This document shows positions 1,076 through 18,034 of a stretch of DNA of 18,034 bases, piece by piece (position 1 is the stretch's first letter; each line of letters opens with the position of its first letter). The translations under genes and the position numbers were made by a program. The stretch comes from Promethearchaeota archaeon (GTDB taxonomy: Archaea; Asgardarchaeota; Lokiarchaeia; Sigynarchaeales; SOKP01), in assembly GCA_019057735.1 (NCBI GenBank), contig JAHLWV010000019.1, forward strand, positions 1 through 18,034. Direction: 5' to 3'. Below the pieces are notes generated by a model that was given only the letters and a program-made list of their open reading frames with translations, did no database searches and was not told the origin of the DNA.

Positions 1076-1127
1076 CTTCTTATCTTCCTTAGAATTGAAA
1101 ATAATCTCAAATTTGTATGTTGATTTT

Positions 1128-1369: not shown

Positions 1370-1379
1370 CATCACAAAT

Positions 1380-1409: not shown

Positions 1410-1698
1410 TTTAATCACTCCTTTTAAATATTGAAAAATAATGAACATATTTTTCTCTTTTATATGAATTCGTATGCACTTTCTCGTTTTTTCTTCACTT
1501 ATTAATTTGATTAAATTAGATTATTTAAACTACGAAAATACAGGAGGAGACTTTTAAAGTAAAATAAAAACAACTTAAAAAACTCAGATTTTTATTATTT
1601 TATAACAAATTGTATGATAATAAGTATTAGTTATAGTAAGTAAATTTAAATGATATTTGTGGCCGAAGTAGCTAATCTATTTTTAGCTGTTTTTAATT

Positions 1699-2910: not shown

Positions 2911-3035
2911 ATTTAACAAATCATAATAATTTCTAGCAAAAAATAGATCAAAATATCTTAATTTCTCTTAATTATTAAAGTTTTTAAATAAAAATTAGAA
3001 TTTTTTTAAAAAGGAGAAAGCATTAAGATAGAAAA

Positions 3036-3620
3036 CTACTTTCCGCGCCCCTTATTGGCCCCTAAGCTTGGTCGAGTTTTTTCAGAACCCCATCCCTTCT
3101 TATATAATCCACGGGCTTTCTTTCCAGAAGAAGATAAGCCACGAGCTACTCTTCTTGTGTGTTGAGGTTCGCAAATCCAATTAATTTTTGGGTCTGATTT
3201 AATAACTGGATGACTTGGGTCCACCATAATAACTTCGTAATACCAACTCCTTCCATCGGCATATACTTTATAGCTATTCAGAACCTCTAAATTTGGGTAT
3301 TTTCGCTGTACGCGCTCTTCAGCTACCCATTGTAAATTTTTACCGGTTGTGTATTTAGAGACACCCATTGCTCGAGGTTTTCGTCCTCTTTTAGGTCTAA
3401 CTTTATGCATTCCACCTTTTCGGATTCTAGCTCGAACAACGACATATCCTTGTTTTGCCTTATACCCTAAAGTGCGTGCTCTATGCAATTTAGTCGGTTT
3501 TTCAACTCGTTCAATAGATTTTCCTTTTCTATATTCAATTCCTCTTTTCCAGTGATTTGTTTGATATCCAGTTTCGTGTTTTTCGAATGTATCTTTCACA
3601 TAACTATATCCAGACTTCAA
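3036..3620 (-). CDS. rpl15e: Large-subunit ribosomal protein eL15
   Basis: A 194-residue basic protein of the archaeal and eukaryotic L15e family, which is absent from bacteria. Recognisable blocks are RARTLGYKAKQGYVVVRARI, then GGMHKVRPKRGRKPRAMGV, and the C-terminal HTRRVARGLSSSGKKARGL. The length matches archaeal eL15. The start is TTG at 3620 (MKSGYSYVKDTFEK), as the family's N-terminus demands; GGAG lies 12 bases upstream. It binds 23S rRNA in the 50S subunit. It is transcribed alone here, divergent from the DUF2095 gene. Confidence 0.96.
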   Translation of the reverse strand: MKSGYSYVKDTFEKHETGYQTNHWKRGIEYRKGKSIERVEKPTKLHRARTLGYKAKQGYVVVRARIRKGGMHKVRPKRGRKPRAMGVSKYTTGKNLQWVAEERVQRKYPNLEVLNSYKVYADGRSWYYEVIMVDPSHPVIKSDPKINWICEPQHTRRVARGLSSSGKKARGLYKKGWGSEKTRPSLGANKGRGK

Positions 3621-3690
3621 GATTTAGACAAACTCCAATAGTTTAATAAAAAAATAAATAATGCAAAATTAATTAATTTTATTATTTCAT

Positions 3691-3702
3691 CTTTTTATAT
3701 GA
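3691..3702 (-). promoter_or_regulatory. TATA box for the eL15 gene
   Basis: The minus strand reads TCATATAAAAAG, a close match to the archaeal TATA consensus, about 75 bases before the TTG start at 3620. Transcription would begin near 3670, giving a leader of about 50 bases. The 187-base gap is shared with the divergent DUF2095 gene, whose own candidate TATA is TTTATAATA near 3728. Confidence 0.45.
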
Positions 3703-3807
3703 TTGTCAATAATTTTATAGTTTTAAATTTATAATAATACATAATACAGCCTAGAACGTTTTACATCTTGGAACAAGGAAAAAAAGAAGAATATCAGAAT
3801 TAATATA

Positions 3808-4317
3808 ATGACTAATAAGGAAATGAAAGAAGAAGAAAAAAACAAAGAGAAAAATACTTTAGAGAATAAATTGAAGAAAAACTTTGAAATCAACGATGAA
3901 GAAGGTTTGAACCTTTCATACGATAAAAGCGATTTAGAGGCACAATTTCCTCGATTAATGCATGAATTATCTGTAAAAAAAAAAACTCTCAAGATCGAAG
4001 GAGTAGGTGATGATATCGAGCCAGAACAAGCAGAGATTGAGGAACTTCCAAAAGAACACTATTACGAAGATTTAAAAAAACCTGGAGCCATTGACTTCCT
4101 CAGAAGATGTACAAAAACTGAGGATGCCTTAAAAATATTGGATTTTCTTTTAGAACAAAATGAATTAAGTCCGCCAGATTATCACAAATTAAAAAACCGG
4201 ATAAAAAAAGAGGGGGGATTAAAAGAACTGCTTCTTGAATATGGTGGTTTAAAAACGCCCGGATATTACGAAAGGAAATTCCTTAGGAAAAAAAATTTAA
4301 CTGACGGTGAATTATAA
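3808..4317 (+). CDS. DUF2095 family archaeal protein
   Basis: A 169-residue hydrophilic protein. Residues 1-40 are lysine- and glutamate-rich and probably disordered. Residues 42-65 (DLEAQFPRLMHEL) match the FPxLxxEL opening of the family. Residues 92-135 (PGAIDFLRRCTKTEDALKI and following) match the core block with its RRC and the acidic, helical stretch after it, and GYYER at 152-156 matches the GYY ending. DUF2095 is an archaeal family of unknown function with no catalytic motif that I know of. It starts at ATG 3808 with no clear Shine-Dalgarno. It is divergent from eL15 and convergent with the winged-helix gene at 4419. Confidence 0.8.
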   Translation: MTNKEMKEEEKNKEKNTLENKLKKNFEINDEEGLNLSYDKSDLEAQFPRLMHELSVKKKTLKIEGVGDDIEPEQAEIEELPKEHYYEDLKKPGAIDFLRRCTKTEDALKILDFLLEQNELSPPDYHKLKNRIKKEGGLKELLLEYGGLKTPGYYERKFLRKKNLTDGEL

Positions 4318-4330
4318 AACAATAAGAATT

Positions 4331-4410
4331 TAGATTAATGATGAACTTATGACAATCGAAAGAGCTTTTGCTCAAAGCGATGATGTTGTCGCCCCAAACT
4401 GAAATTTAAA
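4331..4410 (+). ncRNA. Candidate C/D box guide sRNA
   Basis: The 100-base convergent gap holds a C box ATGATGA (4338-4344), a C'-like box ATGATGT (4380-4386) and a D box CTGA (4399-4402). Exactly 12 bases (4387-4398, TGTCGCCCCAAA) separate C' from D, the spacing of archaeal guides. AATTT before C and AAATT after D could form a short closing stem. By the D-plus-five rule the guide would pair with UUUGGGGCGACA and methylate its fifth base, a G. Weak points: no clean D' box, and the C to C' stretch is long and contains a small hairpin (GAGC-TTTT-GCTC, 4362-4373), so only one guide may work. Length and position fit the class. Confidence 0.4.
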
Positions 4411-4418
4411 TTTATTAT

Positions 4419-4670
4419 TTAGTCGTTTTCGATCTTTTTCTTAAAGCTCAAACCCTTTTTCGTTAAAATATACCCTTCGACGTCTTTTTTTACAAGTTTT
4501 AATTCGAGGAGAACTGGAACCCGTCCTTTAATACAAGCCATTGGCAATCCTGAGAATATTTTCATACTCTCGTAGTCTTTAGCTCCCTTTTCGATTGCGA
4601 AAAATATTTCAACCCCCATATTCCCAAGTAAGCATTTTAACTCTTGAATAGATTCTTCTCCCTTACTCAA
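4419..4670 (-). CDS. Small winged-helix protein, second gene of the longin-like operon
   Basis: An 83-residue protein that looks like a single winged helix-turn-helix domain. Residues 18-55 give three helices (VEIFFAIEKGA, then YESMKIFSG, then KGRVPVLLELKLV), followed by a wing (VKKDVEGYILTKKGLSF). The start is TTG at 4670, six bases after the stop of the gene before it; the Shine-Dalgarno GGAG lies inside the last codons of that gene, so the two are probably translationally coupled. The partner also carries winged-helix segments. It may bind DNA or work as a protein-interaction module; no family name can be given. Confidence 0.6.
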   Translation of the reverse strand: MSKGEESIQELKCLLGNMGVEIFFAIEKGAKDYESMKIFSGLPMACIKGRVPVLLELKLVKKDVEGYILTKKGLSFKKKIEND

Positions 4671-4676
4671 AGGTTC

Positions 4677-5837
4677 TTAATCTCCTTTTGGCTTATATTT
4701 TTTTGCAATTACTGGTTTAGATTCCTGAGGTAATGATTTTCTCAAATATTCGGGAAAGGCAGTAGTGATCTGAATATTAGTTTTTAAAAAAATATATCGC
4801 TCGTCTTTATATTTTAATTCTTCAATTACATCATATTTTTTTAGGAAGGACAACGAAGAGTTGAGGTGGTCAAGTGCTCTTTTTGAGATTAATTTCGGTA
4901 ATTTATCTTTTGAAATTAGCCCATTTCTTAATTCTGATAGCAGATTGTATTTTTTTGGATCAGAAACAATCTGAAATAAAGCGAATGTATCTTCCTCTAA
5001 TTCTTTTTTATTTTTATTTTCGTAAATACTAAAATACTCCTGTACTTTTGGAAGAAATAATTCGATTAGCTCAAGTTCAATTAATTCGGGATTTTCGTCG
5101 ATATATTCAATTACACTATCGGGAGGGATTCTTTCAGCGTTAACCTCCTTCAATAATAGCACGTACTTTTCTACAATCCCAATTTGATTTATGAAAATAA
5201 ACTGTTTGGAGACTAAAGTATCGATTAACTCTTTGAAATTTAATTTTGGAAATGCGGTGTTATACCATTCTCTTAATCCATCTAAAGCAATTGGGCCTTT
5301 TGAAAGTTTTTTTAACATTAAAAAGACGTTTTTTTTATTTAATAAAGTTGCAATCTTTTCTTCCTCGCTTTTTTCTCGAGTATCTTCAAGTGCTGCCCAA
5401 TATAATTCCTTAACCCATAATTTTATTAAAGAATTGTTTTTATAGATAAGGTCTTTGTCATGTTCCTCAAAATTATTAACATCATTTACATAAAACGCAG
5501 TGAAAATTTCCTCGTTAGAGAGTAGTTTTTCAATAAATTCTGTGCATAAAATGTTTACATTTTGCTCTATTTCCACATTTATTTGTTGATCAAAAATTAT
5601 AGAGACCATTAACATTTCCTTATTTCCGCGAGCCCAATCAGAATGTATTTCAAAATAATTATTGTTTGAGATATTTTGTTCAAAAGAATGAGTAAAAAAT
5701 CCTTCGCTTACTGTTTGATCCATTATATTTGCTATTCTCGTTGAAAGATGTTCATCTAGCATATTTTCGGGATATGAATAAAACACTAGTGGACCAATCT
5801 TTCGATGAAAATAAGATAATGCGACAATAGGTTTCAA
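4677..5837 (-). CDS. Longin/roadblock-like N-domain protein with winged helices
   Basis: A 386-residue protein starting at TTG 5837 after a good Shine-Dalgarno (GGAGAT, nine bases between GGAG and the start). Residues 1-120 alternate strands and helices and open with VALSYFHRKIGPLVFYSYPE. The pattern 'strand, then GPLVFYSYP' resembles longin and roadblock-like domains, which serve small GTPases and are expanded in Asgard archaea. Residues about 165-235 and 290-365 each look like a winged helix, and the tail is basic. There is no signal peptide or membrane segment. The overlap-close downstream gene adds another winged helix. The domain assignment is by pattern, not alignment. A role as a GTPase-linked adaptor or regulator is inference. 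Confidence 0.5.
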   Translation of the reverse strand: MKPIVALSYFHRKIGPLVFYSYPENMLDEHLSTRIANIMDQTVSEGFFTHSFEQNISNNNYFEIHSDWARGNKEMLMVSIIFDQQINVEIEQNVNILCTEFIEKLLSNEEIFTAFYVNDVNNFEEHDKDLIYKNNSLIKLWVKELYWAALEDTREKSEEEKIATLLNKKNVFLMLKKLSKGPIALDGLREWYNTAFPKLNFKELIDTLVSKQFIFINQIGIVEKYVLLLKEVNAERIPPDSVIEYIDENPELIELELIELFLPKVQEYFSIYENKNKKELEEDTFALFQIVSDPKKYNLLSELRNGLISKDKLPKLISKRALDHLNSSLSFLKKYDVIEELKYKDERYIFLKTNIQITTAFPEYLRKSLPQESKPVIAKKYKPKGD

Positions 5838-5917
5838 TTAATGAATCTCCGTTAAATATTGTTGTAAAAATCTCTTCAAACTAATTTTAGTTTTACATAG
5901 AATAAATTAATATTAAA

Positions 5918-5928
5918 GGTTATATATT
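5918..5928 (+). promoter_or_regulatory. Candidate TATA box, HAD-nitrilase operon
   Basis: GGTTATATATT lies about 60 bases before the ATG at 5988 in the 150-base divergent gap. The core TATATA is palindromic and could in principle serve the opposite longin-like gene as well. Confidence 0.4.
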
Positions 5929-5987
5929 CGTAAAAATAAATAAATTTATTTCAATTAAATGTAATTTAAGGTTTTTCTTAAGAGCTA

Positions 5988-6743
5988 ATGTGCCCTATAA
6001 AACTTGTAGGATTTGACCTCGATGACTGTCTTTTCGATTCAACTGGTCTTTCTCAAAGAGCAAGAATTAAGGGTATAGATGCGATGTTAAGCTTAGGGTT
6101 AAAAATTGATAGGCAAAAAGCCTTGATCTTAATCCAAGAAATCGTCGCTGAATATGGTTCTAATTCTTCAAAGCACTATGATTACTTTATTAGGAGATTA
6201 AACCTATATGAAAATTATGCAATCAGTTTTAACGAGCAAGTTAGATACATTACAGCAGCGGTAATGGCTTACCATGGTCAAAAAATTAAGCATATTCAAC
6301 TCTACGACGATGTTTTAAAATCCTTAGAAAAACTTAAAAAATCTTCAATTAAAACCGCGATTATAACGGATGGAATTCCTATCAAACAATATGAGAAGAT
6401 TTTACGACTTGGAATAGACGATTTGATTGATCTAGTCGTAATCTCTGATGAAATTGGGATAAGAAAACCAAATCCTGAGCTATTTTCTTATTGTTTGAAG
6501 AAATTTAAGGTAAAAGGACACGAAACTATTTATGTTGGAGATAATATTTACAAGGATATAATACCAGCTAATTTTAATAAAATCCATAGCGTTTACATAC
6601 ATCGTGGTGGAAAATATGATACCCATATTACAGGTGAAACTATTTCTGAAGAAAACAAACCTGATCATGAAATTTCAGGGCTAGATGAACTTTTCAATAT
6701 TATCAATGATATCAATAAAAAATTTTATATCGGAAAAGTCTAA
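5988..6743 (+). CDS. HAD superfamily subfamily IA phosphatase
   Basis: A 251-residue protein with all four HAD motifs. Motif I is FDLDDCLF, with nucleophile Asp10 and acid/base Asp12. Motif II is IITDG with Thr127. Motif III is Lys160 in RKPNPELF. Motif IV is GDNIYKD with Asp185 and Asp190. A helical cap at about 18-100 fits subfamily IA. The closest type is the archaeal HAD-IA group annotated as small phosphatases or as glyceraldehyde-3-phosphate phosphatase; the substrate cannot be read from sequence. It starts at ATG 5988 without a Shine-Dalgarno. Its stop overlaps the next start (TAATG), so it is co-translated with the amidohydrolase. Confidence 0.85.
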   Translation: MCPIKLVGFDLDDCLFDSTGLSQRARIKGIDAMLSLGLKIDRQKALILIQEIVAEYGSNSSKHYDYFIRRLNLYENYAISFNEQVRYITAAVMAYHGQKIKHIQLYDDVLKSLEKLKKSSIKTAIITDGIPIKQYEKILRLGIDDLIDLVVISDEIGIRKPNPELFSYCLKKFKVKGHETIYVGDNIYKDIIPANFNKIHSVYIHRGGKYDTHITGETISEENKPDHEISGLDELFNIINDINKKFYIGKV

Positions 6744-7558
6744 TGATACGTCTTGCTTGTATTCAACCAGAAATTTTACACCAAATAGATAAAAGTTACT
6801 CTGAAGTAGAAAAAATATTAAATTCTCTTATTAAGCATCACAATAATTGTGATATTATTTGTTTACCGGAAAGATGGACATCACCTATTAATGAAAAAGA
6901 ACTTAATGTTCAAAAAGAAAGGGGAAGCAATTATAAATTTATAAAAAATTTAGCAAAAGAATACGGAATAGGTATAATATCAGGAGCTTTGTGGGAAAAA
7001 AGAAAAGATACGATAAAACCGAGAATTACTAGTTATTTCTTTGATAATAATGGTGATGAGATTAATAGACAAGATAAAATACATCTTTATTCATATGAAA
7101 AGCTTAACTTTGAACCGGGTAAGGAATTAGTCATTTTTTCATTTAAAAAAATCAGTTTTACAATCTTAATTTGTTTTGACATGGCGTTTTTTGAAACCCC
7201 TCGACTTTCTGCTGAAAACGGGGCTGATCTATTATTCTCTCCTACGCAAATTAGCGTAGATGGGATGTTAAATTGGAAAACATATTTAAAAACTCGAGCT
7301 CTGGAAAACAGAATACCAATTGTAGCTTGTAACACTTTTGGGACGATAGTAAAAAGGAAATTTCCAGGGAATAGTAAAATAATATCATTTGAAAAAGATT
7401 ATGTATCGCCTTCAAAACTAAGGGTAATTGAAGGTCCCATTGATACGAGTGGATATGTATATGATGAGATTGATTTAGCATTTCCAAAAAAGCTGAGAAA
7501 ATTGAGATTTAAAGAAGTTATAGATAAAAATGCAATTATCATAAGAAAGACTAATTAA
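6743..7558 (+). CDS. Nitrilase-superfamily carbon-nitrogen hydrolase
   Basis: A 271-residue protein with the complete Glu-Lys-Cys triad: Glu43 in CLPERW, Lys112 in QDKIHLY and Cys144 in ILICFDMAFFE. Further family blocks are the opening MIRLACIQPE and GADLLFSPTQ after the cysteine. The length fits the core domain with no fusion. These enzymes cleave amides or nitriles through a cysteine thioester; this one could be an omega-amidase or N-carbamoyl type, but the specificity is open. Its ATG shares one base with the stop of the phosphatase gene, so they form an operon. A short T6 run at 7597-7602 may end the transcript. Confidence 0.85.
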   Translation: MIRLACIQPEILHQIDKSYSEVEKILNSLIKHHNNCDIICLPERWTSPINEKELNVQKERGSNYKFIKNLAKEYGIGIISGALWEKRKDTIKPRITSYFFDNNGDEINRQDKIHLYSYEKLNFEPGKELVIFSFKKISFTILICFDMAFFETPRLSAENGADLLFSPTQISVDGMLNWKTYLKTRALENRIPIVACNTFGTIVKRKFPGNSKIISFEKDYVSPSKLRVIEGPIDTSGYVYDEIDLAFPKKLRKLRFKEVIDKNAIIIRKTN

Positions 7559-7700
7559 ATAAGAAAATCATAACCATTTCTTAAATTTGGTTCTAATTTT
7601 TTATCAACTTGCAGACCGGTTTTCAAATTTAAGTTGGAGCAGTTTTAGATCCAATGACCTATCTCCCGGGGGGTTTAAATATGAACTTTTAAATTAATAA

Positions 7701-7725
7701 TAAAAAATAAAAAATAAAAAATAAA
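7701..7725 (+). repeat. Seven-base tandem repeat (TAAAAAA) ending at a start codon
   Basis: T residues at 7701, 7708, 7715 and 7722 mark three full copies of TAAAAAA and a partial fourth that runs directly into the ATG at 7726. No Shine-Dalgarno is present. About 25 bases upstream the unusual GC patch CTCCCGGGGGGT (7663-7675) joins TTTAAATA, a possible TATA box. Copy number changes would alter leader length but not the reading frame. Confidence 0.6.
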
Positions 7726-8910
7726 ATGATTTCTGCACAAAGGATAAATAATGAATTTGTAGGTCCAAGAGCGTTATTTGATCAAACTTATATCCCACCT
7801 AAAATATTACATCGAAAAACAGAAGAAAAATCGCTTTATTCAATTCTTAAAGATTCAATATACGATGATTTTCAACTAAATATATTATTTTCAGGTTTAC
7901 AAGGAATTGGGAAAAAAGTCATTGTAAACAAGGTCTTGAACGACATATCTACTTTAAATACTGAACTTATAAAAATCCAAATTGATTGTTCTGAAAAAAA
8001 TGTGGAAGAGATTTTAGTTTCGTTAATAGCTGAAATTGGAAGCAGAAAGAACATCAATTTTGATTATAAATCGTTCCTAAATTCCTCTATCTCGGATTTA
8101 TGGAACTTGTTTAAACTAGTATGTAGAAAAGTAGACCATAATATCACCCTAGTGTTTAATAACATTGAACACATACAACCAGAGGCTTTTAAAAAATTTT
8201 TAAAATACGGCAAAGAAAACAAAATTAATGTAATATCTACGGGTAATCAAGTTTTAAGATCCTCCACCCTGGAAATTTTGAGCGAATTTGACTTTAAGAA
8301 GAAATTAGACTACTTTTCATTCTCCGAGCTTAACGATATTATAAAGCAAAGAATTTCTTTGGCGTTCTTCAATGAGATCGATAAAGAGTTAATAGATTTA
8401 ATTACTGACTTAATTTTCGAACACCATGTACCTGTTCCAGGAAAAGGGATTGAAATTTTAAGAGACCTTTATCCTGTTTTAAATCAAAAAATGACTTTAA
8501 AAAAGTTCGAAATTTATGACATACTTCAAAACCAATTTGACACGCTTCAAATTACAGATGAATTCAGTATGATAAGCTATATCTCAGAATCAGATCTGTT
8601 AAACCTAATTTTTCTGGATAATTTATCTAATTATTTTCTAAAAAATGCAAATCTTTATATAACCATCAAGGAATTAAGAGAACTATATTATGTAACTTGT
8701 GAATCAATAGATTTTGAAAAGGATATAGAGGAATTTAAACGTTTAATCGTTAATTTGCGCAATATAGGGATAATAAACGCTTCAAAAAAAAATTGTGTAA
8801 ATAATTTTCGATACTTTAACGACAATGTTTTGAATTATGATAATTTCTTTATGGTTATAAACCCAAAGCAACTAAAGCCTATCATGGATGCGATTTTCAC
8901 CAAACACTAA
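7726..8910 (+). CDS. Orc1/Cdc6-like protein with degenerate Walker A and B
   Basis: A 394-residue protein with the Orc1/Cdc6 layout: YIPPKILHRKTEE at 22-34 (family: YxPxxLPHRExE), a P-loop region, a sensor 1-like STGN at 171-174, FSFSELNDIIKQRISLAF at 197-214 (family: YxxxEL..IL..R...AF), and a probable winged helix from about 285. The catalytic sites are altered. Walker A is G57-LQGIG-K63-K64, with Lys where Ser or Thr belongs. Walker B is LVFNNIEHI, with Asn145-Asn146 where the family has Asp-Glu. Sensor 2, normally GxxR, is GKGIE. It may still bind a nucleotide but is unlikely to hydrolyse ATP. It is followed by a T11 terminator and smc. A regulatory or origin-marking role is inference. 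Confidence 0.7.
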   Translation: MISAQRINNEFVGPRALFDQTYIPPKILHRKTEEKSLYSILKDSIYDDFQLNILFSGLQGIGKKVIVNKVLNDISTLNTELIKIQIDCSEKNVEEILVSLIAEIGSRKNINFDYKSFLNSSISDLWNLFKLVCRKVDHNITLVFNNIEHIQPEAFKKFLKYGKENKINVISTGNQVLRSSTLEILSEFDFKKKLDYFSFSELNDIIKQRISLAFFNEIDKELIDLITDLIFEHHVPVPGKGIEILRDLYPVLNQKMTLKKFEIYDILQNQFDTLQITDEFSMISYISESDLLNLIFLDNLSNYFLKNANLYITIKELRELYYVTCESIDFEKDIEEFKRLIVNLRNIGIINASKKNCVNNFRYFNDNVLNYDNFFMVINPKQLKPIMDAIFTKH

Positions 8911-8921
8911 TTTTTTTTTTT
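8911..8921 (+). terminator. T11 tract after the Orc1/Cdc6-like gene
   Basis: Eleven consecutive T residues follow the TAA directly, the classic archaeal oligo-T termination signal. It separates the Orc1/Cdc6-like gene from the smc operon. Confidence 0.7.
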
Positions 8922-9004
8922 AATTAAAGAACTTCAATATTGCCTTAAATTGCATAGATTCAACAATAAATTAAAAACGAGAATCCGAACATTCATATCC
9001 CGAG

Positions 9005-9014
9005 CATATAAATA
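9005..9014 (+). promoter_or_regulatory. TATA box of the smc-scpA-scpB operon
   Basis: CATATAAATA fits the archaeal TATA consensus and lies about 60 bases before the TTG start of smc. Transcription would begin near 9035. The short leader then carries ATG at 9044 and an eight-codon frame (MNEMAIQI) whose TGA at 9068-9070 overlaps the smc TTG at 9067-9069. Confidence 0.5.
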
Positions 9015-9066
9015 GATGAAATCATACTTTATTTTATAAAAGAATGAATGAAATGGCGATTCAAAT

Positions 9067-12000
9067 TTGACTTATATCAAAAAAATTTCTATGACCGGAT
9101 TTAAATCATTCGGTGACAGAACTGTTACTCTTAGACTTTCAAGCGGTTTTACTTGTATTGTAGGCCCTAATGGGGCGGGTAAATCTAATATTATCGACGC
9201 TTTAACATTTGCGCTAGGTAGACTGAGCAAAAAAACTATGAGGGCTAAGAGTCTTGAAGATTTGATTTTTGCGGGAGCCCGAGGTAAAAACCCTTCAAAT
9301 AGAGCTTCGGTTACATTATATTTCGATAACTCTGATGAAATTTTTCCAGGTGGAACGGAAACATTTGAAGTTACTCGAACAATTCAACGAGGTGGGGGTG
9401 GAGGATATAAAATGAACGGTAAAAAATCCACTAGAACTCAGATTCTTAATGCTCTTGCAGCTGCCAATGTAGATCCTGATGGAAGTAATCAATTCGTTCT
9501 GCAAGGGAAAATAGTAGAATTAACTCACATGAACCCAGTAACCCGTAGAATATTTATAGAAGAACTTATTGGCCTACAGAAATACGATGAGATGAAGGAT
9601 GGAACTATGAAGGAATTAGAAAAAGCTGAAAGAGATCTAGGCCAATTTGAAGCAATTTTCAAAGAAGTTTCTTCTCAATTAAAAAAAGTAGAAAAAGAAA
9701 AGAATGATGCTTTGGCATGGAAAGAGTTAGATGAACAAATAAACTTATACAACGCTCAATTGATAGCACTAAAGATAGAGAAATTAAGGAACGAAGAAAA
9801 TGATCTAGAAAAAAGCATTGAAGAATCTACTACAATCTTAGAAGAATTAAAAGAAAAATTAACAAGGCAAGACGATATTTTAAAACAAGAATCATTAGTT
9901 ATGGAAAATATTCAAAAAACTATAACTGAAAAAGAAAAAGAAAGGGAAATAATCAATGAAAAAATTACTCATCTTAAAACGCAACAATCTTCAAATCAAA
10001 CGTCTTTAACCCTCGCAAATAAGTCAGTTGAAAAAATTTCTCAAGAGATTAATACTTTGGAAAAATTACAGATGGTTCTTGATGAAAGTCAAACATTTGA
10101 CTCTTTAATTGAATCAGAAAGGAAGGTTGTAGCAGATACCGAGAGTCAAATTGAAGCGGCAAAAGCAGAAATAGAAAGTAAACACCAAAAACAAGCTGAT
10201 ATTGATGCAAAAATTAAAGATCAAAACGATGTAAAAACAGGATTTAATGGAGAAATTTCCATTGTTAAGCAGAAAATTTCATCGAATAAGGCTCAAATTA
10301 AAATTCTGAAAGAAAATATTAAAAAAAACGAAGGAAAAAAACAGAAATTAGAACTAGATCTTAGTAAATTAAAAGGAGAATCTGAAAGCATTGAAGATGC
10401 GATAGCCAATACAAAAAATGAAGCGGAAGCTACAAGAAAAGAAATTAATGACTTAAATATAAAAATTTCAAAAGAGAACGAAAATCAACAAGATCTAGAG
10501 AAAGTTATTATAACTTTACAGAAAGATAAGAACGAACTTAATTCAAAGTCTGCAGATTTTAAATCTATGTTGTCGTCTCTAACTACAGAGATTAAGATGA
10601 ACACCGATAGGATAGAGACGTTGAACTCAGATAAAATTAAAACTGAAGAAAAAATCAAAGAATTAAGTAAAGGGAAAGACACAGAAGAGGCATTAAAAGA
10701 GCTTTTAAAGGAAAAAGACGCGCTAACTAACGAGATAAATAGTTATCGACAACAATTAAAAGATGAAGATTCTATTTATAGAAAAAATGAACAAGATTTA
10801 GAATTATTGTTGATGAAACAAGATTCTATTGAATCAGAAATTAATGATAACAAAACAAAAATTGATAATATTAATACGAGGTCAAATCTATTAAAAAAAG
10901 AATTGACAAATCTTGAGAGAGAAAAACAAGATTTAGAATTAAAATCGTCAACTCTGAACGCAAATTTAACCAAAATTAGCTCTGAATCAGAAGTGCTAAA
11001 TAAAAAAGAAGATAATATTCAAAGACGGTTAGGAGAGCTAACAACTGAGAAAAATAATTTGTTAGCTAAAATAGAAAATACAGAAAAAGAATACGAAAGA
11101 AATACCGAAGATATAACCGGAATCCTCCAAATACTGAACATGCTAACTCAGAATATCAATATATCCGTCGAATCTATCAAGAGTAACATTCAACAGTCTA
11201 ACGCTGAGGCAATTGATACATCAGCGGTCAACTTTAAACAATTTGTCCTTGACATTATCGATATTATGAAGACGATTGAAGACGTAAGCTCTGAGGCAGA
11301 AACAGAAGCTGAACAGAAACCAGAGGATGCTGAAGTGTCTGAAACTCTTAAGTCAATACTTCAGACATTAACTCTTTTTACTGAAAATGTTGACACCACG
11401 ATAGATCAGTTAATTGATTCTGTAAAGGAAACTGCTGATGTAGAGATTCAACAATCTACATCAACATTTGATAGCTTCGTCCAAGATTTAATGGAAATTC
11501 TTGAGAATGTATACTTATCATTGCGAAAACTCACTATGTCAAAATCCCAAGAGCAGTATAAACAGCTTGAAGAGATTACTGAAAATATTGCATCTCAAAA
11601 TGGTGATCTAAACATAATTGAGAATGATTTGACCAGGATAAATACTCAAGAAAAGCATGATTCGGACGATTTATCAGTTACTAGTAAGAGATTAGAAGAA
11701 GTTAATAAGAGAATCACCGAATTACTTGAAAAAATCGAAAAATCTGAAGCTGAGGTTAAACAAAGGAATACCGTAATAGGAGAAAAACAAAAAGAAAATT
11801 TTAATGAAGAAATAAACAATTTAAAACAACTTAAAGAGGACTATTGGGATAAAGTTTCTACCATCAAGAAAAATATAGAAGTAAAACAGCAAGGACTAGA
11901 CGATCTGCAAAAGAAACTTCAAGAATTGCATGGAATACAAAATTTTTATGAAAAAATCATTGATATTGAAAATAATATACAAGAATTAAATTCAAATATA

Positions 12001-13536
12001 GAAAATAAGAAAAATACCATAATTAACACTGAAGAAAGCATTAAAAATCTCAATTTAGAACAAGAAGCTTTAACATTAAAAATTGATTCTCACACTTTAG
12101 AAAAGAATAAGTTTTGGGAGAATACAGAAAAGTTAAGAACTCATATTGGTGACCAAAACAAAAAATTAGAAAGTACAATGGATAACCTAAGGGCACTTGA
12201 AAATGTTATGATGGTTATCAATTCAATTGAAGAATTAGCTAAGGAAAACTTGGAAGCTAACGCAAATATTAAAACTTGTGCTCAAGACATGGAGGGTTTT
12301 AATACCCAAGTAGAAGAGGTGCAAAAGAAAGTCAATGAAATCCAATTAGTCATAGATGCTTTAAGAGAAGATAAAAACAAAGAGTTGGAAGCCCAAAAAA
12401 AAGTTCAAAAAGAATTAAATAAATTAAATAAAGATCTTCAAAAAATACAAGCAAAATTAAACGAATTAAATAAAAATAAAGAACGAGAACAAAAAATAAA
12501 ATCTCTTAACCAAGACATCAAAGAAACTGAGAAACAAATAGAATTAATAGTAAATGATATTGAAACCATTGAAACTGAATTAAAGCAAGAAGAAGACGAA
12601 AAGAATGTAAAACAGGAAGAAATTAATAAGCAGATTCAAGGAAAAGATATATCCTGGCAAAAACAAAAAAATTATCAGAAAGTAATAAACGACCTACGCT
12701 CTGATCTTTCCATGCAAAATGCAAAACTAAACAATTTTGAATCAAAAAAGATTATTACTACCGATCAGATAGAAACCCTTTATCAGAGATCGAAGGATTA
12801 CGGCGCTTTGCCAGTAGTGACTGACGAACTCTCAGAATCCGGATTACAATCAGATATTTCTACAGCTTCTAACAAGAAAAAAGCTTTGGAACCAGTTAAC
12901 TTGAAAGCCATTACGCAATATGATACTGTAAAAGAGCGGTTTGACGAAATAGATATGAGAAGGCAAACGATACAACGCGAAAGAAAAGCAATTCTCGATG
13001 CTATTGAAAAAATCGACCTGGAAAAAACTCGAACATTTATGAAGGCTTACCACGAAATTAATCGTGAGTTTGCTCGCATATTTCAGAAGCTTTCACCGGG
13101 GGGATCTGCAAAAATGATTCTCGATAGACCAGATAAACCTTTTGAAGGAGGATGTAGTATCGAAGCTAGACCTCGTGGGAAGCGTATTTCCAGTTTAGAA
13201 ATATTGAGTGGCGGAGAAAAAACTCTCGTTGCTTTGTCATTTATTTTTGCGGTCCAAGAATTTTATCCTGCGCCATTTTATATTATGGACGAGATTGATG
13301 CCGCCTTGGATGGTCCCAATGTTCATAGAGTAAGTATGGTAATTAAAGAATTTGCCAGACAAGCACAATTCTTGGTGATAAGTCATCGAGAAGAGAATAT
13401 TGTCAACGCAGATCGTATATATGGTGTTACCATGCAACAAAGCGGAATTACCGACATCTTTAGTGTTGATTTAGAAGAAGAAGCTAAAAGGTTACTCGAA
13501 CTTCCGGATGTGCCCCCTACTATTGAAGAAAATTAA
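9067..13536 (+). CDS. smc: SMC condensin ATPase, extra long, without a canonical hinge
   Basis: A 1489-residue SMC; archaeal members are usually about 1150-1200. The head is intact. It has Walker A GPNGAGKS at 33-40, a Q-loop block (QFVLQGKIVELTHMNPVTRR), signature LSGGE at 1380-1384, Walker B FYIMDEID with Asp1408-Glu1409, and a D-loop after it. Two coiled-coil arms of about 510 residues each (roughly 170-680 and 826-1335) flank a centre at 683-825. That centre has none of the glycine-rich hinge motifs and no CxxC zinc hook; it holds two helical repeats around an acidic linker. The TTG start gives MTYIKKISMTGFKSFG, as the family expects, though without a Shine-Dalgarno. With ScpA and ScpB it forms a DNA loop-extruding condensin for chromosome segregation. 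The three genes are in one operon. Confidence 0.95.
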   Translation: MTYIKKISMTGFKSFGDRTVTLRLSSGFTCIVGPNGAGKSNIIDALTFALGRLSKKTMRAKSLEDLIFAGARGKNPSNRASVTLYFDNSDEIFPGGTETFEVTRTIQRGGGGGYKMNGKKSTRTQILNALAAANVDPDGSNQFVLQGKIVELTHMNPVTRRIFIEELIGLQKYDEMKDGTMKELEKAERDLGQFEAIFKEVSSQLKKVEKEKNDALAWKELDEQINLYNAQLIALKIEKLRNEENDLEKSIEESTTILEELKEKLTRQDDILKQESLVMENIQKTITEKEKEREIINEKITHLKTQQSSNQTSLTLANKSVEKISQEINTLEKLQMVLDESQTFDSLIESERKVVADTESQIEAAKAEIESKHQKQADIDAKIKDQNDVKTGFNGEISIVKQKISSNKAQIKILKENIKKNEGKKQKLELDLSKLKGESESIEDAIANTKNEAEATRKEINDLNIKISKENENQQDLEKVIITLQKDKNELNSKSADFKSMLSSLTTEIKMNTDRIETLNSDKIKTEEKIKELSKGKDTEEALKELLKEKDALTNEINSYRQQLKDEDSIYRKNEQDLELLLMKQDSIESEINDNKTKIDNINTRSNLLKKELTNLEREKQDLELKSSTLNANLTKISSESEVLNKKEDNIQRRLGELTTEKNNLLAKIENTEKEYERNTEDITGILQILNMLTQNINISVESIKSNIQQSNAEAIDTSAVNFKQFVLDIIDIMKTIEDVSSEAETEAEQKPEDAEVSETLKSILQTLTLFTENVDTTIDQLIDSVKETADVEIQQSTSTFDSFVQDLMEILENVYLSLRKLTMSKSQEQYKQLEEITENIASQNGDLNIIENDLTRINTQEKHDSDDLSVTSKRLEEVNKRITELLEKIEKSEAEVKQRNTVIGEKQKENFNEEINNLKQLKEDYWDKVSTIKKNIEVKQQGLDDLQKKLQELHGIQNFYEKIIDIENNIQELNSNIENKKNTIINTEESIKNLNLEQEALTLKIDSHTLEKNKFWENTEKLRTHIGDQNKKLESTMDNLRALENVMMVINSIEELAKENLEANANIKTCAQDMEGFNTQVEEVQKKVNEIQLVIDALREDKNKELEAQKKVQKELNKLNKDLQKIQAKLNELNKNKEREQKIKSLNQDIKETEKQIELIVNDIETIETELKQEEDEKNVKQEEINKQIQGKDISWQKQKNYQKVINDLRSDLSMQNAKLNNFESKKIITTDQIETLYQRSKDYGALPVVTDELSESGLQSDISTASNKKKALEPVNLKAITQYDTVKERFDEIDMRRQTIQRERKAILDAIEKIDLEKTRTFMKAYHEINREFARIFQKLSPGGSAKMILDRPDKPFEGGCSIEARPRGKRISSLEILSGGEKTLVALSFIFAVQEFYPAPFYIMDEIDAALDGPNVHRVSMVIKEFARQAQFLVISHREENIVNADRIYGVTMQQSGITDIFSVDLEEEAKRLLELPDVPPTIEEN
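11107..11535 (+). repeat. Tandem 78-residue helical repeat replacing the SMC hinge
   Basis: Residues 683-740 and 761-818 of the SMC align without gaps at an offset of 78. The segments ILQILNMLTQN (686-696) and ILQTLTLFTEN (764-774) match, as do FKQFVLDIIDI (723-733) and FDSFVQDLMEI (801-811). Between them lies an acidic, probably disordered linker (741-759, rich in Glu, Ala and Ser). The linker falls at the exact midpoint of the 1489-residue chain (745), where a hinge belongs. The DNA copies are diverged, so this is an old duplication. Confidence 0.7.
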
Positions 13537-13551
13537 TAATTATAAGTTTAT

Positions 13552-13565
13552 GGTGAATAATCGTT
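13552..13565 (+). promoter_or_regulatory. Shine-Dalgarno and non-standard start of scpA
   Basis: GGTGA at 13552-13556, complementary to the 16S 3' end, is followed six bases later by GTT at 13563. In the scpA frame a TGA at 13554 closes everything upstream, and no ATG, GTG or TTG occurs between it and ATG 13746. ATA (13557) and ATC (13560) are the other candidates. A GTG inside the Shine-Dalgarno opens a seven-codon frame ending in GA-AAA-TAA; a +1 slip there would also enter scpA. Confidence 0.5.
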
Positions 13566-14567
13566 CCAGAAAATAAGAGTGAAGGAAAAAAATACAACTT
13601 CAATGAATGGTCTGTAAAACAAATCCGAGAATTTGCACGTAAAAACAACATAAAAATACCGTCTAAATCAAAAAAGAATGAAATTATTAAACTTATAGAG
13701 AAGATCGCTTCACATCCAGAATTTGTAGACCGAACTCAAGATAATATGGATGTTGAAGTGATGGAAGAAGAGTTAGTCGCCGGTGAGGAAGACGATCCCG
13801 CCTTATTGCATAAAGAAAAACTCGAGTTAAAGTTCTGGCAGAAACCACCTTTTTCAAGCCTTCTAGATCCCGAAGTTGCGAAGGAATCAAATGTTGCTTT
13901 TTACGATCTAGCATCTTTAGTTGATAAATTTTTCAATAATATGCTTGATGAAGACTTTATTAATTATAAGATTGCAGGAATAGCGCTTAAAACTTCGGCA
14001 GTATTACATCATTACAAAATCTCTAGCATAATACGGGATGAAGAACAGATTCAGAAAAAGGAAGAATTGGCGCAATTTAGAGCAAGACACGGTAGATCAA
14101 TACCCAAATCTTTACCACAACCTATTCAACCTAAAATGTTAATCTCCACTAAAGACGAATTATTTGACGCTATGAGATCTGCAATTATTGAGACTATGCA
14201 AAAAAAAGAAAAACTAAAAAGGCGAAGAATGAGACGGGATGAATTAAAAGAACAGCGAATTCAAAAAAAATCTAAAGCACAACTGCCAAAAGAACTTTTA
14301 AAACACATTAGCGGGAAGGAGCAAACTGTAGAAGAGTTACACAACGCTTGGTTTAACAGAATAAAAACTAAAATAAAACTCGATGATAAAGAGACCTCTT
14401 TTTATGACATGGCAGAAATTATTAACATTGAAGAAAAAAGCGACATTGGTAAGAAGTTCGCTTTTGTTCGCATGTTTTTAGCTTTAATGTTCCTCTCAAC
14501 AGGTAATAAGTTAGAACTATTTCAAGACGAAGATTTTAAAGATTTCTCAATAAATTTAAAAAGTTAA
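13563..14567 (+). CDS. scpA: ScpA kleisin subunit with N-terminal SAP-like domain
   Basis: The frame codes well upstream of its first ATG (13746, residue 62). Taken from GTT 13563 it gives 334 residues opening MPENKSEGKK, if the start is read as Met. Residues 16-46, from WSVKQIREFARKN to KKNEIIKLIE, match the two helices and the turn of a SAP-type DNA-binding domain. The kleisin part follows: DPEV...FYDLASLVDKFF, then YKIAGIALKTSAVLHHYK, a basic middle (rich in Lys and Arg, near 195-235), and the C-terminal winged helix ending FLALMFLSTGNKLELFQ, which binds the SMC head. ScpA bridges the two SMC heads. It lies 26 bases after smc. The ScpA call is firm, the SAP call good, the exact start open. 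Confidence 0.85.
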   Translation, partial: VPENKSEGKKYNFNEWSVKQIREFARKNNIKIPSKSKKNEIIKLIEKIASHPEFVDRTQDNMDVEVMEEELVAGEEDDPALLHKEKLELKFWQKPPFSSLLDPEVAKESNVAFYDLASLVDKFFNNMLDEDFINYKIAGIALKTSAVLHHYKISSIIRDEEQIQKKEELAQFRARHGRSIPKSLPQPIQPKMLISTKDELFDAMRSAIIETMQKKEKLKRRRMRRDELKEQRIQKKSKAQLPKELLKHISGKEQTVEELHNAWFNRIKTKIKLDDKETSFYDMAEIINIEEKSDIGKKFAFVRMFLALMFLSTGNKLELFQDEDFKDFSINLKS

Positions 14568-14585
14568 ATTACAATCCTAATTTTT

Positions 14586-14599
14586 GGTGATAGAAACTG
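14586..14599 (+). promoter_or_regulatory. Shine-Dalgarno and CTG start of scpB
   Basis: GGTGAT at 14586-14591 is a perfect six-base match to the anti-Shine-Dalgarno, and CTG at 14597 follows at an ideal distance. In-frame TGA and TAG (14588, 14591) close the frame upstream, and no ATG, GTG or TTG occurs in frame before 15143. As at scpA, the GTG inside the Shine-Dalgarno opens a seven-codon frame ending in GA-AAA-TAA. Confidence 0.55.
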
Positions 14600-15469
14600 A
14601 ACGAAAATAATGAAAAAGAACACGAAAATCAATACGAAGCCGAAACGAATGAAGAAGCACCCTTAGATGAGTCCAATTCCGAAGAAATTCCTCAAGAAGA
14701 AAGGAATTTAGAGGATATTGAGATCGAAATAGAGACCAAAGAAACCATAGAAGATTATCTTAAACAAGATTTTGAGGAAGAAGATATCCAAGAATCTATA
14801 GCAGATGAAACAAGTAGTGAGGAGGAAGATTTATCGCGAATCGAGCCCTCAGAAGAAAGCTTAAGCGATCAAGAGACTGAAATTATAGGATACGATACTG
14901 TTGAATCCCATATACCTCAAGAACTCACGAAGGAAGAATTAGAATTACAATTAAAAGTTCTACGGAGAAATCTAATCGAGGGTGCTCTTTACGCGGCTGG
15001 TAGACCTTTAGATGTAGAAGAATTATCAACTAAATTAGAAATCCCAAAAAAAGAAGTAGAAGAACTTGTAAATGTTGTTGCTTTTGACTATTTAGACCGT
15101 GAAGGCGCTTTAATTGTTGCCCAAATTGGAGAAAAATATCAAATGCAACTAAGGCCCGAACTTACCGAGACAGTCGCCAAATTCGCTAAAGGTGGCGCTA
15201 TTGCTGAGCGCTACTTAAGAACGCTTACCGTAATTGCTTTGAAACAACCGATTTTAAAGTCAACTGTTATTAAATTAAGAGGAAGTGGTGCTTATGAACA
15301 CGTGAAATACCTTTTGGACAACGATCTAATAACAGCGGTAAAAAAAGGAAGGTCAGCAGAATTAACAACAACTGATAAGTATGCGGACATGTTTGGCTTG
15401 CCTAAAAACAAAGAAGAGCTCAAGAGAATGATGATTTCGCAATTAGGGGTTGGAGAAGATATAAATTAG
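14597..15469 (+). CDS. scpB: ScpB with long acidic N-terminal tail
   Basis: Read from CTG 14597 the protein has 290 residues and opens MNENNEKEHE, if the start is read as Met. Residues 1-115 are strongly acidic (Glu- and Asp-rich) and probably disordered. The conserved core starts near 119: LIEGALYAAGRPLDVEELS is the classic ScpB opening, followed by a second winged helix with IAERYLRTLTVIALKQPI and KSTVIKLRGSGAYEHVKYL. ScpB dimers bind the middle of ScpA. A start at ATG 15143 (residue 183) would remove the whole first winged helix and cannot be right. The gene begins 29 bases after scpA and ends the operon. Confidence 0.9.
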   Translation: MNENNEKEHENQYEAETNEEAPLDESNSEEIPQEERNLEDIEIEIETKETIEDYLKQDFEEEDIQESIADETSSEEEDLSRIEPSEESLSDQETEIIGYDTVESHIPQELTKEELELQLKVLRRNLIEGALYAAGRPLDVEELSTKLEIPKKEVEELVNVVAFDYLDREGALIVAQIGEKYQMQLRPELTETVAKFAKGGAIAERYLRTLTVIALKQPILKSTVIKLRGSGAYEHVKYLLDNDLITAVKKGRSAELTTTDKYADMFGLPKNKEELKRMMISQLGVGEDIN

Positions 15470-15511
15470 CATTATATATTATTATTTATTAAAATTTAAT
15501 TTAAGTAATAG

Positions 15512-15583
15512 TGGACCTGACGGGAATTGAACCCGTGGCCTCTTGATTGCGAACCAAGCGATCTGCGACTAATCTACAGGCCC
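15512..15583 (-). tRNA. tRNA-Ala, anticodon CGC
   Basis: On the minus strand the acceptor arms GGGCCTG and CAGGTCC pair with a G3-U70 wobble, the identity mark of tRNA-Ala, and the discriminator is A. The anticodon stem CTTGG/TCAAG encloses TTCGCAA, giving anticodon CGC for codon GCG. The T arm is ACGGG-TTCAATT-CCCGT. There is no intron and no encoded CCA. Confidence 0.95.
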
Positions 15584-15677
15584 ATTTTAACAATAATAAT
15601 ACAATAAAAAAATAAGGGTAAACTAAAAATTTTTGTCATTTTAATTTGAGAAATATATTAATTAGATTTGAATGCAA

Positions 15678-18005
15678 TTAAAACTCCGTTCGACCAATAA
15701 TCTCGTCTTGTGCGGATTTAGATAATTCTGTAAACAATACGGAATAACCAGCGATCCGTACAACTAAGCCTTGATATTCCTTTGGATTTATTTGAGCATC
15801 ACATAGAGTTTCTTTTCCAACTACATTAAATTGGATGTGATAACCTCCATTTTCTTCAAAATAGGTTCTAATAAGTGGAAGGAACAATTCTATCTTTAGT
15901 GTGTTTGGATGAAAAGCTAATATTACTGAGTTTCCATTCGTTATTAACTCATTATCCAGCTTCATTATCGAATTAAGTATCGCAGTTGGACCATTTTTAT
16001 CCCTTCCATTGGTTGGACCAACCCCATTTGAGAGTGGTTCCCTTGACTTTCTTCCATCAGCGGAGGCTGCTGTAAAAACTCCAAATGCCATGTGAAAAGC
16101 TGTAGAATATATCCCTGGATGATACTTTCCACCTCTAAAATTCTCATATTTAAGAACCTCATTACAGAACAAACCTGCTATGTCTCGAGCTATAATGTCT
16201 ACATAATCGTCATCGTTTCCAAACTTAGGGACTTTATTAATAAAGATTTGTCTTATTTCTTCTCCCTTTTTACCATTATAAGTACCTCGGTAATTCTTTG
16301 ATAATATCTTGATTAACTCTTCTAATGAGTATAATTTTTCCTCGTAGACTAATTTTTTAATTACAGCAAGAGAATCGGCAACCGTAGATAAACCAATCAA
16401 TTGAATCGTAGTAAAATCATATTTAGCGCCTCCACTTGTGATATCACACCCCCGTTCAATGCAATCGTCTATAGTTGCGGATAAAAAAGGTTGCGGATTG
16501 AGCTCAGCAATAGCTTTTTCAAGGAAAGACATTGTTTCTACCAAATTTTTTGTAAAAAAGCTAAGTTGGTTCGAAAACTCGTCCAATAAATCTTGGTATG
16601 AAGAGAGCTTTTTTGTGTTTTCAATGCCATATGGCTTTCTTGTAAACATGTCTGTCCCATTGTTCAAGGTTAATTCTAAACACTTAACAATATTTAATTG
16701 AGTAGCGTTTGTACATCCAAATGACTTGTAAGTATGAGTTGGTTCTACACACCCTATTGGCGCGTATCCACGCGCATCCTCTAGAGTATAACCAAGGTTG
16801 TTAAGACCTGGAATCATAACAACATCGTTGAACAAAGCAATACTTGTTCCAGATTTAATAGCTTCTCCAGTTTTTACAAGTAAATCATCTGGAGATTTAT
16901 TATGAATACGAACGGAAAAGGTAGGTTGTACTGTTTTTAGCTTTTTATAAGAATCTAAGAATAGATACGACAATTGATTAGTAGCGTCGTTTCCATCCTC
17001 ATCAACACCTCCTATCGTCATATTTGCTGTGAGTGGCGGTCCTTCTGCAGCTATAATTCCTTTATGGAGGACATAATTCCATAGAGTTGTAAGCTTCAAG
17101 TAAAAACATTCAATTAAGAATTGTACTTCTTCATCAGTTATAGTCCCCTTTTTTATATCCTCAAAATAAAAAGGATAAAGAACTTGATCTATGCGTCCTA
17201 TACTAATAGCAAAGCCTCCATCTTCGAGACCAGCAATAACGTGAGTGAAATACAATAATTGAAAGGCTTCTTTAAATGAGGATGGTGGGTTACCAGAGAT
17301 ATTAGAACAAATTTCAGCAATTTCATAAAGTTCTTTTTTTCTATTACTATTGCCTTCTTTTTCTGCTAATTCAGTTGCCAATATTGAGAATCTTTGAATA
17401 AACTCTTTAGAACCATCTAAAACAATAATAACTGACTCCAAAAAGTTCATTTTCTTTTGATCTTTTGAAAATTCTTTCATCTTCTCTCTTGCTTTTTGAA
17501 TTAAGCCGTTAAATCCCACTTTTAAGACGTTATGATGTCCCGGGAAGAAATGCCCCGTTCCGTTAGTTATGTTTGTATCCACGATATAGGGTAGATTTAG
17601 CATGAGATCGGTTAATTCGGGACTTAAATAAGAGTCAAATCTGGATTTGGTAGTCTCTTCTTCGTTTTTCCAATATGGTATAATTTCTTCGATTATGATT
17701 TGTTTATCGTCATCTGAAAGTAATAGCCGTTGAGTTTCTCGTTTGTTATAGAGGTTAATGTCTTGCTCAATTGTATCAATACGTACTTCAGGATATAAGG
17801 GTGTTCCAACAAATTTAGTACATCGATTCCCAACAACGAATTCATCTTCCCATATTTTTATTGTCATATTCGTCAATAAATGATACATAGCTTTTGCAAA
17901 CCTAATGTTTTGGGGTTCATTCTTTGTAGCTTTATACGACTCAGTGAAGAGTTTAGCTCTTTCTATACAGAGTTCATGTGGTTGGGAAACAACTTCTTTT
18001 TTCAT
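15678..18005 (-). CDS. Glycyl radical enzyme, eliminase type (PFL2/glycerol dehydratase-like)
   Basis: A 775-residue enzyme starting at ATG 18005 and of normal family length. The thiyl-radical site is Cys419 in YAPIGCVEP, with Glu421 as the general base seen in glycerol dehydratase, choline lyase and related eliminases. The glycyl radical loop is RIAGYSV with Gly753 near the C-terminus. Other family blocks are IAAEGPPLTANMTIGG and GRIDQVLYPFY. True pyruvate formate-lyase has a Cys-Cys pair at the active site, so this is not one. The substrate is unknown. It must be installed by a radical-SAM activase, which is not in the window. The enzyme is oxygen-sensitive, so the host is probably anaerobic. 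A T7 tract at 15606-15612 (minus strand) may terminate it before the tRNA gene. Confidence 0.9.
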   Translation of the reverse strand: MKKEVVSQPHELCIERAKLFTESYKATKNEPQNIRFAKAMYHLLTNMTIKIWEDEFVVGNRCTKFVGTPLYPEVRIDTIEQDINLYNKRETQRLLLSDDDKQIIIEEIIPYWKNEEETTKSRFDSYLSPELTDLMLNLPYIVDTNITNGTGHFFPGHHNVLKVGFNGLIQKAREKMKEFSKDQKKMNFLESVIIVLDGSKEFIQRFSILATELAEKEGNSNRKKELYEIAEICSNISGNPPSSFKEAFQLLYFTHVIAGLEDGGFAISIGRIDQVLYPFYFEDIKKGTITDEEVQFLIECFYLKLTTLWNYVLHKGIIAAEGPPLTANMTIGGVDEDGNDATNQLSYLFLDSYKKLKTVQPTFSVRIHNKSPDDLLVKTGEAIKSGTSIALFNDVVMIPGLNNLGYTLEDARGYAPIGCVEPTHTYKSFGCTNATQLNIVKCLELTLNNGTDMFTRKPYGIENTKKLSSYQDLLDEFSNQLSFFTKNLVETMSFLEKAIAELNPQPFLSATIDDCIERGCDITSGGAKYDFTTIQLIGLSTVADSLAVIKKLVYEEKLYSLEELIKILSKNYRGTYNGKKGEEIRQIFINKVPKFGNDDDYVDIIARDIAGLFCNEVLKYENFRGGKYHPGIYSTAFHMAFGVFTAASADGRKSREPLSNGVGPTNGRDKNGPTAILNSIMKLDNELITNGNSVILAFHPNTLKIELFLPLIRTYFEENGGYHIQFNVVGKETLCDAQINPKEYQGLVVRIAGYSVLFTELSKSAQDEIIGRTEF

Positions 18006-18034
18006 TCTTAAAATGCGATCCTTATAATCAGATG

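Follow-up and report, generated by a model that had tools for sequence, protein, structure and literature searches.

What joins the two chains of a condensin whose SMC protein lacks a hinge, a part regarded as defining SMC complexes? The question is raised by an 18,034 nt stretch of DNA from a Promethearchaeota archaeon (Lokiarchaeia, Sigynarchaeales; assembly GCA_019057735.1, contig JAHLWV010000019.1, positions 1 to 18,034), hereafter the window, which encodes a 1489-residue SMC protein on its forward strand (9067..13536; SMC_N, PF02463, E 1.2e-43; TTG start as listed). The parts of smc, scpA and scpB given below for the window lie on the same strand. A first-pass annotation, made from the letters alone, had suggested that the centre of this protein (11107..11535, equivalent to residues 681-823 of the open reading frame) carries a tandem helical repeat in place of a canonical hinge or zinc hook. 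The analyses described here find that the loss of the hinge is a trait of one lineage, and that its position is occupied by a repeated helix predicted to fold as a hairpin.

An SMC protein with neither hinge nor zinc hook

Both halves of the ATPase head match the head profile, the N-terminal half comprising residues 1-174 (9067..9588; match at residues 2-174) and the C-terminal half residues 1301-1468 (12967..13470), and motifs that we take to be Walker A, LSGGE and DEID are readable in the sequence. Of the NCBIfam models, SMC_prok_B scores 581.6 bits, above its cut-off of 567, and SMC_prok_A 593.4 bits, below its cut-off of 729. The closest relatives, at up to 94% identity over the full length, come from metagenome-assembled genomes of Lokiarchaeota or Lokiarchaeia.

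No Pfam match to the hinge family PF06470 was obtained in this protein at E ≤ 10, and a profile built from 14 Asgard hinges gave E values of 0.39-0.47 in profile-profile comparison with the hinge-less family. As positive controls, the same profile matched the set L067, L070 and L188 (E 5e-22), the SMCs of a sister order (E 3e-14) and two sets of a weak-hinge SMC paralogue (E 2e-10; E 2e-5, probability 79%). It might be argued that a divergent hinge has become invisible to sequence methods, as the sister-order SMCs (L178-L180) carry hinges scoring just 31-54 bits with the hinge profile; however, hinges as weak as these, and weaker ones, were detected by the profile-profile controls, and the structural model of the central region discussed below consists of helix only. 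Such a hinge is extremely improbable, and is rejected on the Pfam and profile-profile negatives. These searches of the centre therefore bear out the view that no canonical hinge is present. Similarly, a zinc hook is ruled out by the lack of any CxxC motif in residues 600-900 of all 48 aligned rows, window included, again as first proposed, and the family models for Rad50 (best score 91.5 bits; cut-off 700) and ASRP (141.6 bits; cut-off 300) fall far short of their thresholds. Rad50/SbcC and the archaeal ASRP/coalescin proteins likewise end in a coiled-coil hairpin with no globular hinge but, unlike this family, carry a CxxC zinc hook, which the vast majority of ASRPs are reported to have (PMC9389158).

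An assembly error is ruled out, since 47 relatives whose frames span 900 residues or more align through the tip. Rather than having a normal hinge, close relatives share the hinge-less gene, on contigs that are long or of chromosome scale, the latter including CP070805 and JAIZWK010000001; in another such record, CP070831 (L041), the hinge-less smc frame is split in two. The loss of the hinge is a lineage trait.

Among the literature matches listed (titles and the starts of abstracts, with few subscription papers and no preprints), there was no report of a hinge-less SMC in Asgard archaea. A hinge-less SMC cluster has been described in marine Actinobacteria (PMC12153180), similarly combining SMC heads and coiled coil with the absence of hinge and CxxC; it is, however, bacterial, and the available portion of that source describes neither a tip repeat nor an operon, such that the two are set apart here by description, not by sequence.

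The tandem repeat and its predicted hairpin

The centre of the chain contains two copies of a single helical unit, repeat 1 (residues 680-740; 11104..11286) and repeat 2 (residues 758-818; 11338..11520), either side of an acidic linker that differs in length among relatives (residues 741-757; 11287..11337). The landmark pairs by which the repeat was originally noticed, ILQ (686/764), F-x-x-F-V (723/801) and Asp (729/807), are confirmed, and the best ungapped BLOSUM62 self-score of residues 677-835 is 85 at an offset of 78 (residues 680-737; next offset, 37), a score to be compared with a maximum of 59 in 1000 composition-preserving and 1000 heptad-keeping shuffles. The same repeat gave the best offset in all 17 relatives tested (offsets 69-76, shifted by linker indels) and in five of five further members (66-69). 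Weighing against a special status for this region, the arms show higher raw self-similarity over longer stretches (up to 174 over 231 residues). Because of these longer, weaker similarities, a profile-profile test was added, in which the two repeats aligned in exact register across 61 of 66 columns with an hhalign score of 69.9, versus at most 49.1, over 42 columns, in 66 arm-against-arm controls and at most 15.2 in 24 repeat-against-arm controls. Together, the heptad-keeping shuffles and the arm controls rule out the repeat being a mere effect of coiled-coil periodicity.

An AlphaFold2 (AF2) model of residues 590-920, based on 48 sequences, predicts two unbroken helices (591-748 and 752-909) connected by a turn at 749-751, within the acidic linker. 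The mean predicted local distance difference test (pLDDT) score is 83, but it falls to 72-78 within the repeats and to 61-64 around the turn, and the predicted template modelling (pTM) score is 0.48. As the model comprises two helices and a turn, the two copies are interpreted as the ascending and descending legs of one hairpin at the tip of the arms. Hence the repeat, its offset and the acidic linker stand as first annotated, but each copy of the 'helical unit' is a single helix of around 60 residues forming one leg, not a self-contained domain. Pairing of the legs around this turn would place an intramolecular pseudo-twofold axis near residues 711 and 789.

The modelled tip resembles the cytoplasmic hairpin of a chemoreceptor (2ch7) in shape, both being very long, antiparallel and helical. 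This is a common arrangement with no sign of kinship: there is no MCP family among the five Pfam hits at E ≤ 10, and the proteins and their functions differ. By analogy, such hairpins can pair, although this is no proof that SMC tips do. When solved structures were searched with the tip profile, most of the 60 matches listed, out of 94, missed the core and lay in the flanking coiled coil, before profile position ~120 or beyond ~210.

The ascending arm (residues 175-679; 9589..11103) and descending arm (residues 846-1300; 11602..12966) are assigned from the AF2 helices in their upper parts and by homology to SMC arms in the remainder. The 1127 residues separating the two head halves would, when folded back on themselves, allow 563 per helix, versus 356-363 in eight hinge-bearing Asgard SMCs of the canonical and sister-order types, after deducting 120 residues for the hinge. 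The arms are thus approximately 1.5 times the length of those of ordinary Smc-ScpAB. Two full-length hinge-less SMCs from another family of the order (f4) are 1307-1308 residues long, with the same tip and with the two arm strands shorter by 97 and 88 residues, respectively.

The tip could nevertheless be nothing more than a coiled-coil terminus, an inert hairpin left behind when the hinge disappeared and nothing took its place. The AF2 helices do run unbroken through arm and tip, and tip conservation is unremarkable when compared against four distant relatives from family f2. Within the window's family only, however, the two core tip stretches are the best-conserved part of the protein between the heads, conservation being highest at residues 691-720 (0.84) and 811-840 (0.80), relative to a maximum of 0.71 in the arms and an ordinary 0.54 at 721-780; the stretch below repeat 2 (residues 819-845; 11521..11601) is also conserved inside this family. 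Furthermore, the composition of the tip is unlike that of the arms, strong hydrophobic residues constituting 0.37-0.38 of the repeats and 0.25-0.26 of the arms, with roughly half the charge. All 22 members scored have an acidic tip, and the retention of the repeat in all 22 relatives tested needs a reason that an inert end would not supply. A plain coiled-coil end is accordingly considered distinctly improbable.

Lineage, operon and kleisin

Strong matches (E < 1e-40) to the tip profile A1 were found in 65 of the 83 genomes of the class, all belonging to one order: 54/65 in the window's family (f1), 7/8 in f2, 1/1 in f3 and 3/5 in f4, with none in the four genomes of the remaining families. 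Some of the misses may result from contig breaks; in G008, for instance, only 3 kb separate ScpB from the edge of its contig. Another genome, G048 (f4), is probably chimeric, since no strong hinge-less match was obtained there and the SMCs it does contain cluster with family f17, but was retained in all counts. A broader tip profile was used to scan 227 genomes of the phylum, with up to nine candidates scored in each, and the sole strong match listed outside the class was in G182; this shares 82% identity with f2 members along almost the entire gene, and probably represents a mis-binned contig. Weak matches to profile A3 in the window's family (E 1e-4 to 1e-6) were dismissed as noise after two that cover the core (G031:C49 and G071:C3) turned out to be one enzyme, presumably cysteinyl-tRNA synthetase from a reading of its sequence.

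A tree of SMC heads was constructed from 61 rows following removal of three duplicates (L153, L160 and L162) and of L189, which has no N-head match; the weak-hinge paralogue served as the root. The window SMC was placed among Asgard SMCs, and the 16 hinge-less rows formed one clade (100/100) amid hinge-bearing proteins, making a single loss of the hinge the simplest reading. The best tree unites this clade with the sister-order SMCs (93/89), while its union with the hinge-bearing SMCs of Lokiarchaeia is not rejected (approximately unbiased test, p 0.374).

Downstream of smc in the window lie scpA, encoding the kleisin (stop-to-stop frame 13557..14567), and scpB, encoding the kite protein (14597..15469; PF04079, E 2.7e-33). 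Pfam gives no ScpA match for the protein from the window itself, but it belongs to the same profile family as that of L215, which exceeds the PF02616 cut-off. Among 20 hinge-less loci selected for having flanks (17 distinct genomes), ScpA and ScpB were found downstream on the same strand in every case, directly after smc in 16 and following a gap of ~2-3.4 kb in four. The system therefore resembles Smc-ScpAB condensin in its heads, ABC signature, antiparallel arms and smc-scpA-scpB order, differing in the absence of the PF06470 hinge, the tandem-repeat tip hairpin, the longer arms and an N-terminal extension of ScpA. Sister-order operons (L178-L180) comprise ScpA, two ScpB genes and the SMC with the 31-54 bit hinge.

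A separate issue from that of the joint is whether this is the housekeeping condensin or a specialised second complex. Ten genomes (G027, G029, G037, G040, G043, G046, G047, G051, G059 and G061) harbour, alongside the hinge-less gene, a hinge-bearing SMC with an open frame of 1005-1233 residues, a hinge above 80 bits and ScpB within ~3 kb, as would suit such specialisation. However, in eight scanned loci of these hinge-bearing Lokiarchaeia SMCs, including one (L170) from a genome without a strong hinge-less match (G064), ScpB adjoins SMC (on the opposite strand in L163), yet ScpA was recognised in none within the DNA around the gene. Moreover, the hinge-less gene order equals that of hinge-bearing smc-scpA-scpB operons in other Asgard families (L193-L195), and hinges above 42 bits occur in none of the 24 genomes of the window's genus; the hinge-less SMC is therefore the only one found there with both ScpA and ScpB. 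A specialised second complex is considered improbable. The earlier deduction from scpA and scpB that this is the chromosomal condensin consequently holds for the operon and fits the window's genus, but does not extend to all Lokiarchaeia, given the second hinge-bearing SMC of some genomes.

Weaker hinge matches are present in 22 of these 24 genomes, and in the loci examined correspond to a separate paralogue of ~1150 residues, near which neither ScpA nor ScpB was found. This weak-hinge paralogue (L171, L175 and L184; 1120-1190 residues in full-length rows) is distributed across the phylum, has neighbours of similar size in the three loci examined, and is a possible further SMC complex. Additionally, G030, whose other SMC matches are one hinge-less and one weak-hinge protein, encodes a solitary hinge protein of 247 residues (L213:8024-8764, minus strand; PF06470, E 4.2e-25), which may be what is left of a hinge-bearing SMC that has otherwise disappeared.

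The kleisins of hinge-less operons are themselves distinctive: 81-155 residues precede the conserved ScpA core in 13 of 13, against 10-28 in seven of seven hinge-bearing operons, these lengths being upper bounds as they derive from stop-to-stop frames. Several of the extensions contain DNA-binding-like sequences. SAP-like Ish1 matches exceed the cut-off in L013, L021 and L153 and are weaker in L215, and that of the window (13599-13700; E 1.2e-5, 25.9 bits) is just below the cut-off of 26.6. By comparison, the extension in L214 has a helix-hairpin-helix match (3e-13) and that in L155 a weak zinc-finger-like match, those of L157 and L162 are strongly basic (+32 and +21), and those of L168, L164 and L218 have no recognised domain; the extension of L001 was outside the domain scan. 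No DNA-binding-like N-terminal domain of this sort was found in the ScpA of the seven hinge-bearing operons. Such extensions would be consistent with DNA contact moving to the kleisin, a correlation inside one clade.

The 5' ends of both genes are unusual. In the window (13557-13746) and L001-L051, a SAP-like motif is present in 27 of 34 scpA frames, 20 of which have no ATG, GTG or TTG ahead of it. An in-frame ATT or ATA lies 6 nt past a GGTGA-like word in 13 of 25 frames, with an ATG at the matching place in L020, and translation probably starts at AUU or AUA in those frames; the candidates in the window are ATA, ATC or GTT. Likewise, there is no ATG, GTG or TTG upstream of the domain in the window scpB (14594-14620), where GGTGA is followed by CTG-AAC-GAA, aligned with ATG-AAC-GAA or TTG-AAC-GAA in relatives, making CTG the probable start. 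Two of 33 scpB frames (the window and L001) have no usual start, and L003 and L023 share the CTG.

The tip as a possible joint, and neighbouring genes

On balance, and with moderate confidence, the AF2-predicted hairpin is proposed to act as a substitute dimerisation joint in the form of a four-helix bundle, with DNA contact partly moved to the kleisin. The globular hinge would have disappeared from the SMC of an ordinary smc-scpA-scpB operon in the common ancestor of a single order of Lokiarchaeia. The middle of the chain would have turned into an extended helical hairpin, each leg a copy of one ~60-residue helix, and the arms would have lengthened, with ~465-563 residues per helix where there had been ~360. 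Two chains would then meet at their tips, where the four legs, two from each, may pack together as a bundle, closing a head-arm-tip-arm-head ring as in other SMC-kleisin complexes. This bundle might be head-on and overlapping, similar to that of ROP, or side-by-side as in chemoreceptors; the head-on arrangement is favoured, because only there would both legs, sharing one sequence, be equivalent, each helix having the same environment. Hinges bind DNA, but this tip should not, because it is acidic, and the contact may have been taken over by the kleisin through its gained N-terminal extensions. Both ideas in the first-pass annotation, a pseudo-twofold hinge half and a four-helix dimerisation module, are in keeping with the repeat, with the hairpin predicted by AF2 and with its excess of hydrophobic residues.

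Rather than pairing with its counterpart, the tip might instead dock another protein, leaving the SMC chains held by their heads and kleisin only. A candidate exists in four f2 genomes (G043, G047, G050 and G051), which encode proteins that lack SMC heads and measure 927-1044 residues between stop codons (L159:7000-10131, minus strand; others at L219, L225 and L226). Profile comparison with the SMC tip detects the hairpin twice in these headless proteins (E 4e-18 and 9e-10; arm controls E ≥ 0.06), and they possess a lysine-rich, histone H1-like tail (HC2-like, E 0.012, below the cut-off); an acidic tip would suit such a basic partner. In a reverse search, the headless protein had matches in 47 of 83 genomes, with 65 places listed: the four headless genes, 54 inside hinge-less smc genes (44 genomes) and seven elsewhere. 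All 54 overlap the tip stretch, with modest strength (E 8e-4 to 2e-10). A protein search with the headless sequence returned seven records, the query included, and the Foldseek list for its AF2 model held no convincing match. The principal difficulty for docking is that these proteins occur in just four of the 83 genomes of the class, all f2, whereas the tip is retained where they are missing, and no other strong carrier was listed among the candidates, at most nine per genome, scored in the 227-genome scan. A docking role is hence judged unlikely, and so is the associated supposition that the partner is the headless protein in some relatives and something not found elsewhere.

Returning to the substitute joint, a fuller version can be envisaged in which, after a natural hinge exchange in a chromosomal condensin, two SMCs meet head-on through a duplicated helix and build a four-helix bundle of pseudo-222 symmetry, DNA contact passed from the hinge to the kleisin via repeatedly recruited N-terminal DNA-binding modules, and the headless two-hairpin protein plugs into the tips by its hairpins, its H1-like tail serving to cross-link complexes or chromatin. 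This whole scheme is doubtful. Exchange of the joint as such has engineered parallels: Bacillus subtilis Smc with the hinge swapped for the unrelated zinc hook of Rad50 grows normally (PMC5344682), and Rad50 is functional with a MukB hinge (PMC6969161). Compared with the B. subtilis construct, the exchange in Lokiarchaeia would be natural, lacks CxxC and is accompanied by longer arms.

Such an exchange would have occurred in an Asgard lineage near the ancestry of eukaryotes, in what is apparently the sole SMC-ScpAB complex of the window's genus. Since relatives with and without a hinge, genomes with both systems and the genome with a solitary hinge can be compared, it opens a test of which hinge functions, as joint, DNA gate or DNA-binding site, are required. 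SMC censuses based on PF06470 will miss these proteins.

Upstream of smc, the window encodes a 394-residue, weakly AAA/Cdc6-like protein (7726-8910), and a protein of this type is also upstream in 10 of the 20 scanned hinge-less loci (eight distinct genomes). Elsewhere, the flanks of L155, L156, L160 and L161 contain further open reading frames of 348-475 residues, which score ~115-121 bits with an iterated SMC profile and are probably other coiled-coil or ATPase proteins.
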